Assembly: GCF_023634025.1 (NCBI RefSeq)
Contig: NZ_JALJCW010000004.1
Location: 1 to 64,000 of the forward strand
Direction of reading: 5' to 3'
DNA length: 64,000 nt
DNA from: Hanstruepera flava
GTDB taxonomy: Bacteria; Bacteroidota; Bacteroidia; Flavobacteriales; Flavobacteriaceae
Shown: positions 1 through 4,163 of the stretch, one piece after another
How the letters are laid out: every line of letters begins with the position of its first letter
How positions within the stretch are numbered: the stretch's first letter is position 1
Notes under the pieces: generated by a model
What the model was told of the DNA's origin: nothing
The model's input: the letters and a program-made list of their open reading frames with translations, nothing else
Database searches by the model: none
Translations under genes and position numbers: made by a program

Positions 1-62
1 TCAATTCGTATTCCAAATTTATCTTCAACTGACATAAGTAATTCGACTGAATCTAATCCCAT
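1..62 (-). CDS. Acyl-carrier-like protein, 5' part only (window edge)
   Basis: Read on the minus strand, an ATG at 62-60 opens a frame running off the window edge. Its first residues include GLDSVELLMSVEDKFGI. DSVEL is the phosphopantetheine attachment motif of acyl carrier proteins, with Ser5 as the expected attachment site, and the following VEDKFGI fits helix II of the fold. An in-frame TAA lies 12 nt upstream of the ATG, so the protein really starts just before the motif. Short proteins beginning MGLDSVEL are known among acyl-carrier-like families. It is the fourth and most distal visible gene of the cassette array: its ATG lies 15 nt from the boundary motif of the palindrome at 78-220. 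Its acyl substrate and partner enzymes cannot be told. Only about 20 codons are visible. Confidence 0.6.
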   Translation of the reverse strand, partial: MGLDSVELLMSVEDKFGIRI

Positions 63-77
63 TTTCGGTTTGCGTTA

Positions 78-220
78 AATGTTTTACAACGTTCTCGGCT
101 ATGAGTAGTTGCGTGGGTTAGCACTTAACTTCGCAAGTACAAACCAAACTGAAAATCCGCGAGGATTTTCAGAAGTAGACGAGAACAAGCAATTACTTAT
201 AGCCATTGTTGTACAACGTT
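78..220. repeat. attC-like palindromic repeat A
   Basis: An imperfect palindrome between two genes. Left boundary AATGTTTTACAACG (78-91); right boundary GTTGTACAACGTT (208-220). The arms GGCTATGAGTAGTTGC and GCAATTACTTATAGCC (revcomp GGCTATAAGTAATTGC) differ at only two positions. An internal perfect hairpin, CTGAAAATCC (149-158), loop GCGA, GGATTTTCAG (163-172), sits in the centre. Size, two-tier arms and central hairpin resemble integron attC sites, but the canonical RYYYAAC/GTTRRRY cores are not matched exactly. Same design as repeats B and C. Confidence 0.75.
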
Positions 221-767
221 ATTTTATTTTCTCCAAAGCTTTTAAAATCCGCTTTTCCATTTTGTTGGTTTCGAGTGGACTATTGTTATATTGATATCTT
301 TCAATCATTTTCCATTTTTTATTTTGATTGTCGATAATATATAGAATCATTACACCTCGATTTATATCTCCAAAATAACCATTAATAGAAATAAATATTG
401 AATTCTTATTTTTATCAGAAACCAATTCATTCGGAACATTTTTTTCATTTAAAGATGCTCGTCCTTCAATTTTCGAGTTTATTGTTCTGTAATCGCCAAA
501 TAGAAATGGAATTTCAACATATTCAGCATTAGGGTATTGAGATTTCAAAAGGTCAACTGTGAATTTGGTCAATGCTTTTCGCTTGTCAGGATGATTAATA
601 AATGACAAGTTCGACTTTTCTTTAATTTCTATGTATGGAGTGATAATACTGACATCATCTTTATCAATTTTGTAATTTCCAGTATCACTTATAGATTCAA
701 CTGTCGATTTTGATGACGAACAAGAAATCAAAATTAAAAATGTAAATATTGAGAGTGCTTTTTTCAT
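219..767 (-). CDS. Cassette gene: putative lipoprotein of unknown function
   Basis: A 182-aa protein. The start chosen is the ATG at 767, because MKKALSIFTFLILISC is a textbook lipoprotein signal: two Lys, a hydrophobic run, then the LISC lipobox with Cys16. A start four codons earlier at 779 would lie inside the repeat. The rest is hydrophilic and mixed alpha/beta, with no motif I recognise. A C-terminal stretch VMILYIIDNQNKKWKMIERYQ looks like a beta hairpin. It should sit lipid-anchored in the periplasm or outer membrane. The ATG directly abuts repeat B and the stop codon lies in the right boundary of repeat A, so the gene fills its cassette completely. No promoter is visible in front of it. 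Confidence 0.7.
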   Translation of the reverse strand: MKKALSIFTFLILISCSSSKSTVESISDTGNYKIDKDDVSIITPYIEIKEKSNLSFINHPDKRKALTKFTVDLLKSQYPNAEYVEIPFLFGDYRTINSKIEGRASLNEKNVPNELVSDKNKNSIFISINGYFGDINRGVMILYIIDNQNKKWKMIERYQYNNSPLETNKMEKRILKALEKIK

Positions 768-907
768 AATGTTGTACAACGTGTTCGTGTATGGTTTGTT
801 GCGTTATCACTAAGATAGCAAAAAGAGACAGATCCACTGTTCAGAAGCGAAGAAATTCCGATTAGGAATTTCCGAGCAATGAACTATACACGTTGTTGGC
901 TAACGTT
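768..907. repeat. attC-like palindromic repeat B
   Basis: Left boundary AATGTTGTACAACG (768-781) and right boundary GTTGGCTAACGTT (895-907). The arms GTGTATGGTTTGTTGC and GCAATGAACTATACAC pair with few mismatches, and there is an extra unpaired GTGTTC-type insert on the left arm, as in A and C. The central hairpin is GAAATTCC (852-859), loop GATTA, GGAATTTC (865-872). Its sequence differs from A and C but pairing is preserved, which suggests that structure rather than sequence is under selection. The stop codon of the acetyltransferase gene overlaps the right boundary. Confidence 0.75.
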
Positions 908-1418
908 TTTTACTATATACTACATGATCCCATTTGATATTATGTGGCATTAGCAGTTTTTCGTATATATATAATTTTTTCATTCCAATTTTTTCTGCAA
1001 CCCTTTGAGAAGGAATATTTTTAACATAAGTATGGATAAAGATTTCATTTAATTTTAAATTTTTAAAACCATACTCAAGACTTGCTTTAGCAGATTCAGT
1101 TGCATAACCTCTGTTCCAAAACTTTTTACTTATGTGATATCCTATTTCTGGGATTATTTTTCCATTGATGTTTTGCAAACTAATTCCACATTGTCCAATA
1201 AATTCACAATTTTCTTTAAGTAAAACAGCCCAAAGACCAAAACTATTTTCTGTATAACTTTTTATACTTTTTTTAATCCACCTTCTAACACCTGTCATAT
1301 CATAAGTAGATGGATAATAGCTCATTGTTTCCTTGTCACTCAATATTTGAAATAATGAAGAAACATCTTCAGTATTTAATTCTCTAAGTGCTAATCGATT
1401 TGTTTCAATTATTTTCAT
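900..1418 (-). CDS. Cassette gene: RimJ/RimL-type GNAT N-acetyltransferase
   Basis: A 172-aa protein. It opens with IIETNRLALRELNTEDV, the usual start of the RimJ/RimL group of GNAT enzymes (ERLxLRxLxxxD). The acetyl-CoA pyrophosphate loop is FWNRGYATESAKA, around residues 120-132, and is followed by the typical NxxSxRVxEKxGM element (NIPSQRVAEKIGM). It should transfer acetyl from acetyl-CoA to an amine: an N-terminus, a small molecule or an antibiotic. The substrate cannot be told. GNAT acetyltransferases are among the commonest cargo of integron cassettes in general. It lies between repeats B and C, with its ATG 13 nt from the boundary motif of C and its stop inside B. Confidence 0.88.
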   Translation of the reverse strand: MKIIETNRLALRELNTEDVSSLFQILSDKETMSYYPSTYDMTGVRRWIKKSIKSYTENSFGLWAVLLKENCEFIGQCGISLQNINGKIIPEIGYHISKKFWNRGYATESAKASLEYGFKNLKLNEIFIHTYVKNIPSQRVAEKIGMKKLYIYEKLLMPHNIKWDHVVYSKKR

Positions 1419-1431
1419 TTAGTTCTGGAGA

Positions 1432-1576
1432 AATGTTTGCCAACGTGTTTGTGTATGATTAGTGGCGTGTTTTAAGCACGGAATTTAGCAAATAAAAACC
1501 GAATAGAAAATCCGTGAGGATTTTCGTAAGTAGGCGAGAACCAGCCATTAATTATACACGGTGTTGGCAAATCGTT
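1432..1576. repeat. attC-like palindromic repeat C
   Basis: Left boundary AATGTTTGCCAACG (1432-1445); right boundary GTTGGCAAATCGTT (1563-1576). The outer 8-mers TTGCCAAC (1437-1444) and GTTGGCAA (1563-1570) are perfect inverted copies. The inner arms GTGTATGATTAGTGGC and GCCATTAATTATACAC pair with two mismatches. The central hairpin is GAAAATCC (1506-1513), loop GTGA, GGATTTTC (1518-1525), nearly identical to that of repeat A. Confidence 0.78.
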
Positions 1577-1578
1577 TT

Positions 1579-2172
1579 TTATTTCCACTTGAAAGTTTTG
1601 TACAATTTTTCCGCATATTCAATTAAATTATTATCAGTTTCAAATTCATAAGACTTGTCAATATATTGAAATGAAACAGTAAACATATATGCTGTTTTAT
1701 GTGATTCAGAATATGTAATTAAGTCATATCGGCTTTGATTAAGTCCTTTTGATGTTCGGTAAAATCGGGTGTTTAATAATATTGATTCGTTATTGTCTGA
1801 TAATTCAAAAGTCTTTTCCGAATATTTATTTTCCTTTTCAAAAATTCTGTCAGGATTTTCAAAATATCCACTTATCGTACTTTCTTTAGCTTCTTTTAGG
1901 TTTTTAGCTTTATCAAGTTTAACAAGAAAAATAGATATTTTAATTGGTCCGCTATTGAAACTTATCGGAAGTCCTTTTCCGCTTGCTTCAAAAAACTGTT
2001 CGGGACCATTTTTCCCATTCATCATTTTTCCATAATTTCTCCAAGATGTAGGAACTTGAAATTCATATATTTCTGATGAAATAGTGTCTGTTTCTATCCA
2101 CATTTCACTCAAAGTTTGAGAAAATCCGTTTAGACAAATTAAAATTCCAATTATTGTAATTATTCCTTTCAT
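1579..2172 (-). CDS. Cassette gene: exported protein of unknown function
   Basis: A 197-aa protein with a Sec signal peptide (MKGIITIIGILICLNGFSQ, cleavage probably after FSQ, the usual Bacteroidota pattern). The mature part contains an IYEFQVPTSWRNYGKMM segment followed by alternating polar and hydrophobic strands. It ends with FETDNNLIEYAEKLYKTFKWK. This recalls exported proteins with a PsbP/DcrB-like sandwich, in which a short beta domain is followed by a C-terminal helix that includes a 'tF' motif, but the match is too weak to name a family. It is the recombinase-proximal cassette, with its ATG 13 nt from the boundary motif of repeat D and its stop 3 nt beyond repeat C. Confidence 0.65.
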   Translation of the reverse strand: MKGIITIIGILICLNGFSQTLSEMWIETDTISSEIYEFQVPTSWRNYGKMMNGKNGPEQFFEASGKGLPISFNSGPIKISIFLVKLDKAKNLKEAKESTISGYFENPDRIFEKENKYSEKTFELSDNNESILLNTRFYRTSKGLNQSRYDLITYSESHKTAYMFTVSFQYIDKSYEFETDNNLIEYAEKLYKTFKWK

Positions 2173-2185
2173 TTCGTTTTTTTCA

Positions 2186-2399
2186 AATGTTTGCCAACGA
2201 CAGCGTTATGCGTAGTTACGTTTTGGATTTTAAAAATAGCGAATTTATTCGCTAATTTTTATAAATACAGAGTAAACGTAAACAAATTGCGTATAATGGC
2301 AGTTGGTTCACGTTTTCCCTCGATGGGCAGCGGAAGCTGTAATTAGTACAATCCCCAAGATTCCCGCGTCGTGCGCCATTTGGCATAACGCTGTCGTTG
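2186..2399. repeat. attC-like repeat D, composite palindrome
   Basis: The left boundary AATGTTTGCCAACG (2186-2199) is identical to that of repeat C. Two alternative pairings are visible. A ~113-bp unit (2194-2306) is bounded by CCAAC and GTTGG, with central hairpin TAGCGAAT (2237-2244), loop TT, ATTCGCTA (2247-2254). A longer, perfect 17-bp inverted pair links CAACGACAGCGTTATGC (2195-2211) to 2383-2399. The stretch 2307-2382 is visibly richer in G and C than its surroundings. This could be two fused recombination sites, or one site interrupted by an insertion. Confidence 0.6.
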
Positions 2400-2488
2400 A
2401 ATCACATATCCAAAGGGACGGGAGTGCGCAGCACGTAGTAACTTTGGTCAGCTTTAGCTGAATGTGATTCAACTCGTTATATGTGGAT
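2397..2488. repeat. Inverted repeat E next to the recombinase gene (attI-like candidate)
   Basis: TTGAATCACAT (2397-2407) and ATGTGATTCAA (2462-2472) are perfect inverted copies. They enclose 54 bp that include a small CAGCTTTAGCTG dyad. Downstream, CGTTATATGTGG (2475-2486) repeats the CACATAT theme. It overlaps the right end of repeat D and ends about 20 bp from the recombinase stop codon. Its position between recombinase and first cassette is where an integration site would be expected, but its role is only inferred. Together, 2173-2509 holds no gene. Confidence 0.5.
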
Positions 2489-2509
2489 AAATATACTCTT
2501 TTTTGGGAA

Positions 2510-3691
2510 TTACTCTCCGGATAATAGGAACTTTTGTTCCGCTTTATCAGTTTTTGATAATTGGTTTACTGCCATATCCAATGGGCTCGCTATATCCATT
2601 AAATCCTTTCGTGCTACATGTGTGTAAATCATGGTGGTTTCAGGCTTGGCATGGCCTAAAAGTTCCTGTATATGGCGCAGTCCAACACCATGTTCTAATA
2701 AGTGGGTTGCATAGCTGTGCCGTAAGGTATGGGGTGTTACGGTTTTACTTATGCCGGCAGCTTTACAAGATCGCGACAAAACTTTTCTAATACTACTTGC
2801 AGAATAAGGTTTGCCTTTTGCGCCTTCTACAAAATAGTAAACAGGTTCATAGGTGGTTATGTAATTTTGAAGTAAGGGTAAAAAACTTTCGGCTAGGGTA
2901 ACATACCTGTCTTTTCGACCCTTGGCACGCTTTACATGTATTTGCTTTCTGGTTAAGTTAATGTCACTCAATTTTAAAGCTAATACTTCACCAATTCGTA
3001 ATCCTGCAGAATAGAGTAGTGTTATAATGGCTCTATGTTTTAGGTTTCTTGTACATTGAATAATGGCAATAATCTCTTCAGGAGATAAAACCGTAGGAAG
3101 CTTTTTCGATTTTTTGGGCCGAGTAAGGGCTAGGTTGCTAATATGGGTATTAGGGTAAAAAATTATAAACTGCTTTACGGCACTAATAAATTGGCGTTGC
3201 GTACTTATTGAATAGTTACGTTTAATAAAAACAGATTCAACAAATAATTCTACATCTCTATTGGTAAGTGTATTTAATGTTTTATTGGTGTTAAACTCAA
3301 TAAAATCGGCCATAAAAAAACTATAGGTTTCAACGGTACTTTTACTGTATCTTTTTCCTAGTAAATATTTGTAAAACCCATTAAGCAATTGTCGTTGCTC
3401 TGTATTTAAATGGCGCTCGCGTTTGGTAGGGAATACATGAACCTTGGTTGCAGGTTTATGGTTTAGTTGGCTACTATCTACAATAGCATGACCTTTAAAA
3501 ACAGAAAATATGAGTTTTAGGTTTTCTGGACAATTTAAAATATACCAGCTTTTTAAAGTCTTGCTCCATTTGGCCTTGGGTAAATGTTTAACAACATCAA
3601 TCAACACCCAGTCGTGTTTAAACCCAATTAATATTTGGTTAGCCTGTCTATGGTAGGCACGCGAGAGCGTTATTATAGGTAACGAGCTCAT
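2510..3691 (-). CDS. Tyrosine recombinase beside the cassette array
   Basis: A 393-aa site-specific recombinase. All catalytic residues are present: Arg232 in SAGLRIGEV, Lys257 in the beta hairpin, His321 and Arg324 in HTLRHSYATH, His347 in ELLGH and Tyr356 in TTMIYTHV. A SAM-like core-binding domain lies at about 95-185. The C-terminus carries IASPLD (368-372), as IntI and many Bacteroidota Xer-like enzymes do. Residues 1-85 form an extra N-terminal domain with a WSKTLKSWYIL motif, absent from XerC/D and IntI1. The extra IntI insertion between boxes I and II is not present: that interval holds only EPVYYFVEGAKGKPYSASS. The gene reads toward the cassettes and in their direction, unlike a canonical integron where intI is divergent. 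Most likely it moves or captures the cassettes; plain prophage or ICE integrase is the alternative. Confidence 0.88.
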   Translation of the reverse strand: MSSLPIITLSRAYHRQANQILIGFKHDWVLIDVVKHLPKAKWSKTLKSWYILNCPENLKLIFSVFKGHAIVDSSQLNHKPATKVHVFPTKRERHLNTEQRQLLNGFYKYLLGKRYSKSTVETYSFFMADFIEFNTNKTLNTLTNRDVELFVESVFIKRNYSISTQRQFISAVKQFIIFYPNTHISNLALTRPKKSKKLPTVLSPEEIIAIIQCTRNLKHRAIITLLYSAGLRIGEVLALKLSDINLTRKQIHVKRAKGRKDRYVTLAESFLPLLQNYITTYEPVYYFVEGAKGKPYSASSIRKVLSRSCKAAGISKTVTPHTLRHSYATHLLEHGVGLRHIQELLGHAKPETTMIYTHVARKDLMDIASPLDMAVNQLSKTDKAEQKFLLSGE

Positions 3692-4163
3692 TTTTTTAAT
3701 GAAATATAAGGAAAATACTAACCATAGGCAATAGCTAAACCGTTATTAAAATCTAAAACTAATTAAGATTGTCTTGCAATGCTTCGAGAATGGTTTTAAA
3801 AAATCCAAATTTTAAAACCTGGGAAGAACGATCCTCGATCAATACACAAACAAAACCCTTTTAAATCGCAAATTGGTGTCATTTTAGGATTAAGAAAAAG
3901 AGTTGTATAATGATATCAAGATTTATTTATTAACCTGTATAGCTATTTTAGGACGGGTCATGTGCAAATCTTAAGTATAGCTTAAGTATGGCTTAAGTAT
4001 GGCTTAAGTATGGATAGTGTATGGATGACATCGATTTTTCCTACAAATTATAGAATCATAAAAAGCAGGTTTCTTCAACTCTTAAAAGACGTTAATTAAC
4101 AATATTTTATTACGACTCAAAATGGCTTCTTTGTAACTTAATAACCAACTAAATTTCAAGGCT
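3692..4163. other. Intergenic region between divergent recombinase and dioxygenase-like gene
   Basis: A 472-bp gene-free stretch. It holds the 11-bp tandem repeats at 3971-4025 (separate entry) and a long AT-rich segment. A GATCCTCGATC dyad lies near 3830-3840. No tRNA, no open frame with coding character and no clear TAnnTTTG promoter was found by eye. It must contain promoters for both divergent genes. Confidence 0.5.
3971..4025. repeat. Five 11-bp tandem repeats (TTAAGTATGGC)
   Basis: Units: TTAAGTATAGC (3971-3981), TTAAGTATGGC (3982-3992), TTAAGTATGGC (3993-4003), TTAAGTATGGA (4004-4014) and a degenerate TAGTGTATGGA (4015-4025). The spacing is close to one helical turn, so a protein bound to each unit would contact the same DNA face. 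They lie about 280 bp upstream of the recombinase start and 140 bp upstream of the dioxygenase-like gene. They may be an operator array or simply a slippage microsatellite. Confidence 0.8.

Follow-up and report, generated by a model that had tools for sequence, protein, structure and literature searches.

We set out to identify the function of three repeats that alternate with genes near one end of the window (the whole 64,000-nucleotide stretch analysed, from a contig of Hanstruepera flava). An earlier note on this DNA had described central hairpins whose stem sequences differ between the repeats while pairing is preserved, flanking arms that pair with few mismatches, and an unpaired insert on the left arm that might, as in integrons, set strand choice. 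The core sequences it quoted match the window exactly. Each site is about 145 nt long and follows one layout. The left box ends in CAAC and is followed by 6 unpaired nucleotides, the first of them G, and by one arm of the 16-bp stem; after a variable middle that contains a perfect hairpin come the second stem arm, three unpaired nucleotides, and GTTG with the right box (Table 1). On the + strand the flanking arms of A, B and C pair over 16 bp with no true mismatches, only G.T wobbles (two each in A and C, three in B). The inserts (GTTCTC, GTGTTC and GTGTTT) do lie on the left arm, from CAAC to the stem, but with 3 nt facing them on the right they form a 6:3 internal loop and not a pure bulge. 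Searches of Rfam with this region of the window, and with two arrays, returned no match at any credible score.

Table 1. Features of the putative cassette locus, in window coordinates
Feature	Position	Strand	Remarks
Start of next cassette gene, acyl carrier protein-like	1..60	-	TIGR00517, 3.2e-4 on 20 aa
Putative attC-like site A	78..229	+	+ strand, antisense to the genes of the cassettes, folds better
6-nt insert GTTCTC, site A	91..96	+	between CAAC and the 16-bp stem
Site A central hairpin	151..170	+	GAAAATCC-GCGA-GGATTTTC; loop GCGA, C-G closing pair
Cassette gene, small lipoprotein-like protein	219..779	-	no family
Putative attC-like site B	768..905	+	
Equivalent 6-nt inserts, sites B and C	781-786 (site B), 1445-1450 (site C)	+	
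Site B central hairpin	852..872	+	GAAATTCC-GATTA-GGAATTTC; loop GATTA
Cassette gene, GNAT acetyltransferase	900..1418	-	Acetyltransf_3, 6.9e-36
Putative attC-like site C	1432..1582	+	
Site C central hairpin	1506..1525	+	GAAAATCC-GTGA-GGATTTTC; loop GTGA
Cassette gene	1579..2172	-	protein family not assigned
Divergent, expanded attC-like hairpin closing the first, ORF-less cassette	2194..2399	+	arms 2195-2211 and 2383-2399
Short ORF-less first cassette	2396..2473	-	matching perfect 12-nt ends GTTGAATCACAT / ATGTGATTCAAC; adjoins the attI-like site
attI-like site	2470..2496	-	immediately after the integrase stop codon; GTATATTTATCCACATATAACGAGTTG; conserved in relatives
Integrase, 393-aa tyrosine recombinase	2510..3691	-	from NCBIfam/Pfam, PDB search, motif spacing, tree and models

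A profile search of loci retrieved from Flavobacteriaceae and other Bacteroidota yielded 368 copies. Set against a phylogeny-preserving null, with tree and substitutions retained, the outer stem covaries strongly over 259 copies, with nine correctly paired column pairs above every null value; RNAalifold on the full alignment recovered the outer stem only. Column-wise covariation was not obtained for the central hairpin, a region too variable to align by column, so we judged compensation there copy by copy. In a non-redundant set of 281 copies, 69% have a perfect stem of 7 bp or longer (5% of dinucleotide shuffles) and 59% one of 8 bp or longer (1.6% of shuffles), and these copies contain 56 different central stem sequences. 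A covarying outer stem and central hairpins that are perfect and varied therefore indicate that pairing, not sequence, is conserved. The compensation read by the earlier note from three repeats thus recurs in the larger alignment, as does its one-sided insert: over 345 copies the insert is confined to one arm when sites are oriented by their cassette genes, with no random spread between arms, and measures 6 nt on the left in 281 copies and 5 nt in 57, with 3 nt on the right in 343. The arms are 16/16 in 177 of 282 copies; 59 have one extra base in the left (R'-L') arm, almost always T or C, and a check of the same 282 for extrahelical bases found no regular base bulges on the R''-L'' arm.

The two strands of the sites carry different marks. 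Two near-invariant G.T wobbles lie on the + (antisense) strand, in 275 of 281 and 240 of 282 copies. At the remaining stem pairs G.T outnumbers A.C by 110 to 28, and independent gains over 14 pairs run the same way (55 vs 23, p=4e-4). A third wobble, T on the + strand opposite G, falls in the cassette-end arms; box position 7 agrees in only 1% of cassettes, since it is G at one end and A at the opposite end. The hairpin loops are of the form G..A in 128 of 174 cases and T..C in four, and 152 of the 174 are closed by a C-G pair; DNA loops of the types GNA and GNNA are exceptionally stable when a C-G pair closes them. Computed DNA folding makes the antisense strand more stable than the sense strand at 89% of 264 sites. 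Compared across copies, the sites prove to be selected for hairpin folding, with a preference for the antisense strand. As a candidate for strand choice, the insert keeps its integron analogy and its constant arm, but it is not the sole strand mark, since the wobbles and G..A loops also differ by strand. Its counterpart in integrons is the unpaired central spacer of attC, and in V. cholerae strand choice has been attributed to an extrahelical base, not to the spacer (PMC2727003).

Could the sites instead recombine as double-stranded DNA read by sequence, the hairpin being a by-product of two inverted binding sites and a transcription terminator or RNA stem? Parts of the outer stem are conserved in sequence (e.g. 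columns 24, 25 and 33), and the integrase described below does not have the known structure-reading insertion, both of which suit this explanation. We regard it as unlikely, however, given that stem positions covary and are not fixed, that pairing is maintained although boxes and stems are free to vary, that the wobbles are oriented to one strand, and that central stems are so diverse.

All complete cassette genes around the repeats lie on the minus strand (for the lipoprotein-like gene, ATG at 767 is a likelier start than TTG at 779), and the array runs past the window edge at position 1. When cassettes are found duplicated, almost every pair shows 97-100% identity in the site 3' of the gene, whereas the 5' site usually differs, with mostly 45-85% identity. 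A cassette of Algibacter onchidii compared with its counterpart in the window's genome is 89% identical in the gene region, 77% in the 3' site and 59% in the 5' site. The boxes follow the same unit. Between site n and site n+1, which bound one cassette, the first five box positions match in 95, 94, 92, 92 and 89% of cases, vs 28-41% after shuffling; cassette-end boxes are identical over five bases in 226 of 271 cassettes, with 93 different 5-mers, and the match between two ends of one cassette far exceeds that between two ends of one site. GTT is present in 262 of the 271 boxes and GTTRRRY in only 23. The longest ORF is antisense to the site in 230 intervals and not in 21. These comparisons show that the mobile unit is one gene plus its 3' site, and that both cassette ends carry a matching, cassette-specific box, GTTR and about 6 nt. 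The 86 cassette proteins sampled belong to varied families, including ParE and YoeB toxins, immunity-like proteins, HamA and PtuA defence proteins, hydrolases and transporters.

Many palindromic, intergenic copies, some of them scattered singly, might also be expected of dispersed REP/RAYT-like or MITE-like repeats that lie between genes by chance. Yet the ends match across the gene between neighbouring repeats and not within a repeat, more than 100 copies in one complete genome (G018) share a single orientation, an integrase and attI-like site are adjacent, and the movement of genes together with their 3' repeat already contradicts this explanation, which we consider extremely improbable. We infer recombination from these patterns, and put at about 0.86 the probability that the repeats are attC-like recombination sites of an integron-like gene-cassette platform.

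Comparison of loci further shows that cassettes start beside a conserved attI-like site just past the integrase gene. This stretch is common to relatives of the window integrase, with the core ATATAACNNGTT. The window and its closest relative are 97% identical over the 38 nt after the integrase stop, and the alignment stops at GTTG, where unrelated cassettes begin. The expanded hairpin that closes the first cassette was not detected by the site profile. Several attI copies contain TATATTTG, which is like the Bacteroidetes -7 promoter element TAnnTTTG and is possibly a cassette promoter.

The integrase gene is on the same strand as the cassettes and is transcribed toward them. Its best-scoring models are XerA and integron integrase, both under cut-off. 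A canonical integron with a merely diverged IntI-type integrase would account for the common plan of attI, cassettes, cassette-end boxes, asymmetric spacer and variable terminal hairpin, and the integrase reaches 214 bits against TIGR02249, near the best family. That score is nevertheless under the TIGR02249 cut-off of 265, and the IntI-specific I2 insertion is absent from all integrases of this type that we checked: KGxxKDR and HxLRH are 58 aa apart in the window integrase and in relatives, vs about 100 aa in the IntI proteins L168, L174, L179 and L182, and in a PDB search IntI4 residues 186-245 have no counterpart in the window integrase. In a tree built by a quick method, with weak deep branches, IntI enzymes with the insertion form their own clade (99%) and the window lineage falls outside it. 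With the scarcity of GTTRRRY boxes and an R''-L'' arm without regular base bulges, we hold a diverged IntI to be quite unlikely. On present sequence evidence, the system functions in the manner of an integron but falls outside the canonical IntI type.

The integrase has an extra N-terminal domain of about 95 aa, the first 75 residues of which were modelled as a mixed alpha/beta domain. Pfam and PDB sequence searches with this domain returned nothing reliable. Structural matches of the model are XPB (Z 7.0, 2.0 A over 56 residues) and SMARCAL1 HARP (Z 4.2), where Z under 8 may reflect a common fold arrangement only, and HARP is among the top Foldseek matches, the best of which has a weak E of 0.024. 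The predicted resemblance to the XPB/HARP fork-DNA domain is suggestive only. In-frame stops reported for some integrase relatives were, in those followed through the frame, ordinary terminal stops. A second integrase in the window's genome (G000:C3:84527-85645, L031) is 41% identical, belongs to a related lineage and has sites nearby. Tandem 11-bp repeats (CTTAAGTATGG) occupy 3970-4024, upstream of the integrase gene.

We propose that the integrase would bind the folded antisense strand and cut the box at its GTT (C-G^TTR on the strand of the genes); the asymmetry of the 6:3 internal loop, the G.T wobbles and the stable loop of G..A form would tell it strand and polarity. With less confidence, we suggest that recognition of a branched or folded substrate, the part of I2 in IntI, may fall here to the N-terminal XPB/HARP-like domain. 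Whether this amounts to a second solution to integron recombination seems to us an even bet: a separate tyrosine recombinase lineage would then act on folded single-stranded sites without I2 and the usual extrahelical bases, and with G.T wobbles, a 6:3 loop and an N-terminal domain of fork-DNA type. If so, it would be either the proposed intermediate in the origin of integrons or an independent invention.

How widespread is the system? The 3.09-Mb genome of the window has further copies on other contigs, and because several sit at contig ends, the assembly is broken by arrays. Copies are present in 33 of 60 sampled relatives, the best being 90-96% identical across genera, and a phylum-wide draw of Bacteroidota gave a close copy of the site in 41 of 395 genomes; none was found in phages. 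In G018 the copies cluster into a block of about 40 kb and another of about 75 kb, and an integrase gene lies close to where the latter ends. A 32-kb stretch of plasmid pPP2 from Persicobacter psychrovividus carries 21 copies. They all share a strand, the opposite strand encodes mostly 'hypothetical protein' genes, and an integrase relative is located where the plasmid record begins. Of the 15 named loci with both sites and integrase, 14 have the sites on the 3' side of the integrase and in a single orientation. Locus L141 (79-1700 and 2946-3983) has its sites 5' of an integrase-like gene, opposite to all other loci and the same as in canonical integrons. At E 1e-60 no integrase was detected in several of the genomes that have arrays, so their arrays may be orphaned or use a more distant enzyme.

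An ORF-less cassette of ~430 nt has at least a dozen near-identical copies in G018, in differing neighbourhoods (L065:585-998 and some twelve further places within L064-L069); a promoter, an RNA and a parasite are candidates for what it is, and a Bacteroidetes promoter search within it found nothing. At L077:4571-14141, near-identical 1.7-kb inserts on the opposite strand (about 525 aa) lie between sites and are probably an insertion sequence in the array.

The spread across relatives and the phylum, the more than 100 sites in one genome and the plasmid array suggest that annotation may be overlooking a large pool of exchanged genes, belonging to a gene-collecting system that is widespread in Bacteroidota and apparently goes unannotated. 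Integrons have been described as rare in this phylum: a RefSeq survey recorded one complete integron in Bacteroidetes, and the Salinibacter ruber integron, known to IntegronFinder, shares the phylum-level group (PMC9024848). If such a survey requires the IntI-specific region, the present type would be missed. A literature search, with preprints and most subscription journals outside its scope, found no description of this site type.

Compared with IntI integrons (class 1 and Vibrio superintegrons), the system likewise has a tyrosine recombinase with an attI-like site beside it, one-gene cassettes with a 3' folded site, complementary cassette-specific R''/R' boxes, conserved folding with an unpaired central spacer and a variable terminal hairpin, and a favoured, better-folding antisense strand; AAC then G beside the box is also common to both (PMC2727003). 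It differs in lacking I2 and having the extra N-terminal domain, in its box (GTTR+NNN rather than GTTRRRY), in bearing G.T wobbles where IntI sites have extrahelical bases on the R''-L'' arm, and in its array 3' of the integrase, with integrase and cassettes in the same direction and not divergent. Because tests for I2, arm-specific extrahelical bases and GTTRRRY came out negative, we do not class it as a canonical integron. Treponema integrons, in which the integrase is transcribed toward attI in the cassette direction, share the orientation and the array 3' of the integrase but belong to another phylum and have another site type (PMC3607928). The XPB damage-recognition domain and the SMARCAL1 HARP domain may share the predicted fold of the integrase N-terminal domain; there is no sequence-level match, and binding of DNA structure by the integrase domain is putative. 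XerA-like and simple tyrosine recombinases (4a8e, 5hxy) provide the closest solved catalytic domains and likewise lack I2, though XerA acts on a dif-like site and has neither a cassette array nor such an N-terminal domain. Work on integron origins reported that I2 was not identified elsewhere, and asked how folded sites and I2 could arise separately (PMC4792948). Because the integrase lacks the part held to be needed for reading folded DNA sites, the system offers a test of integron evolution, and its combination of folded sites with no I2 allows that question to be tested directly.
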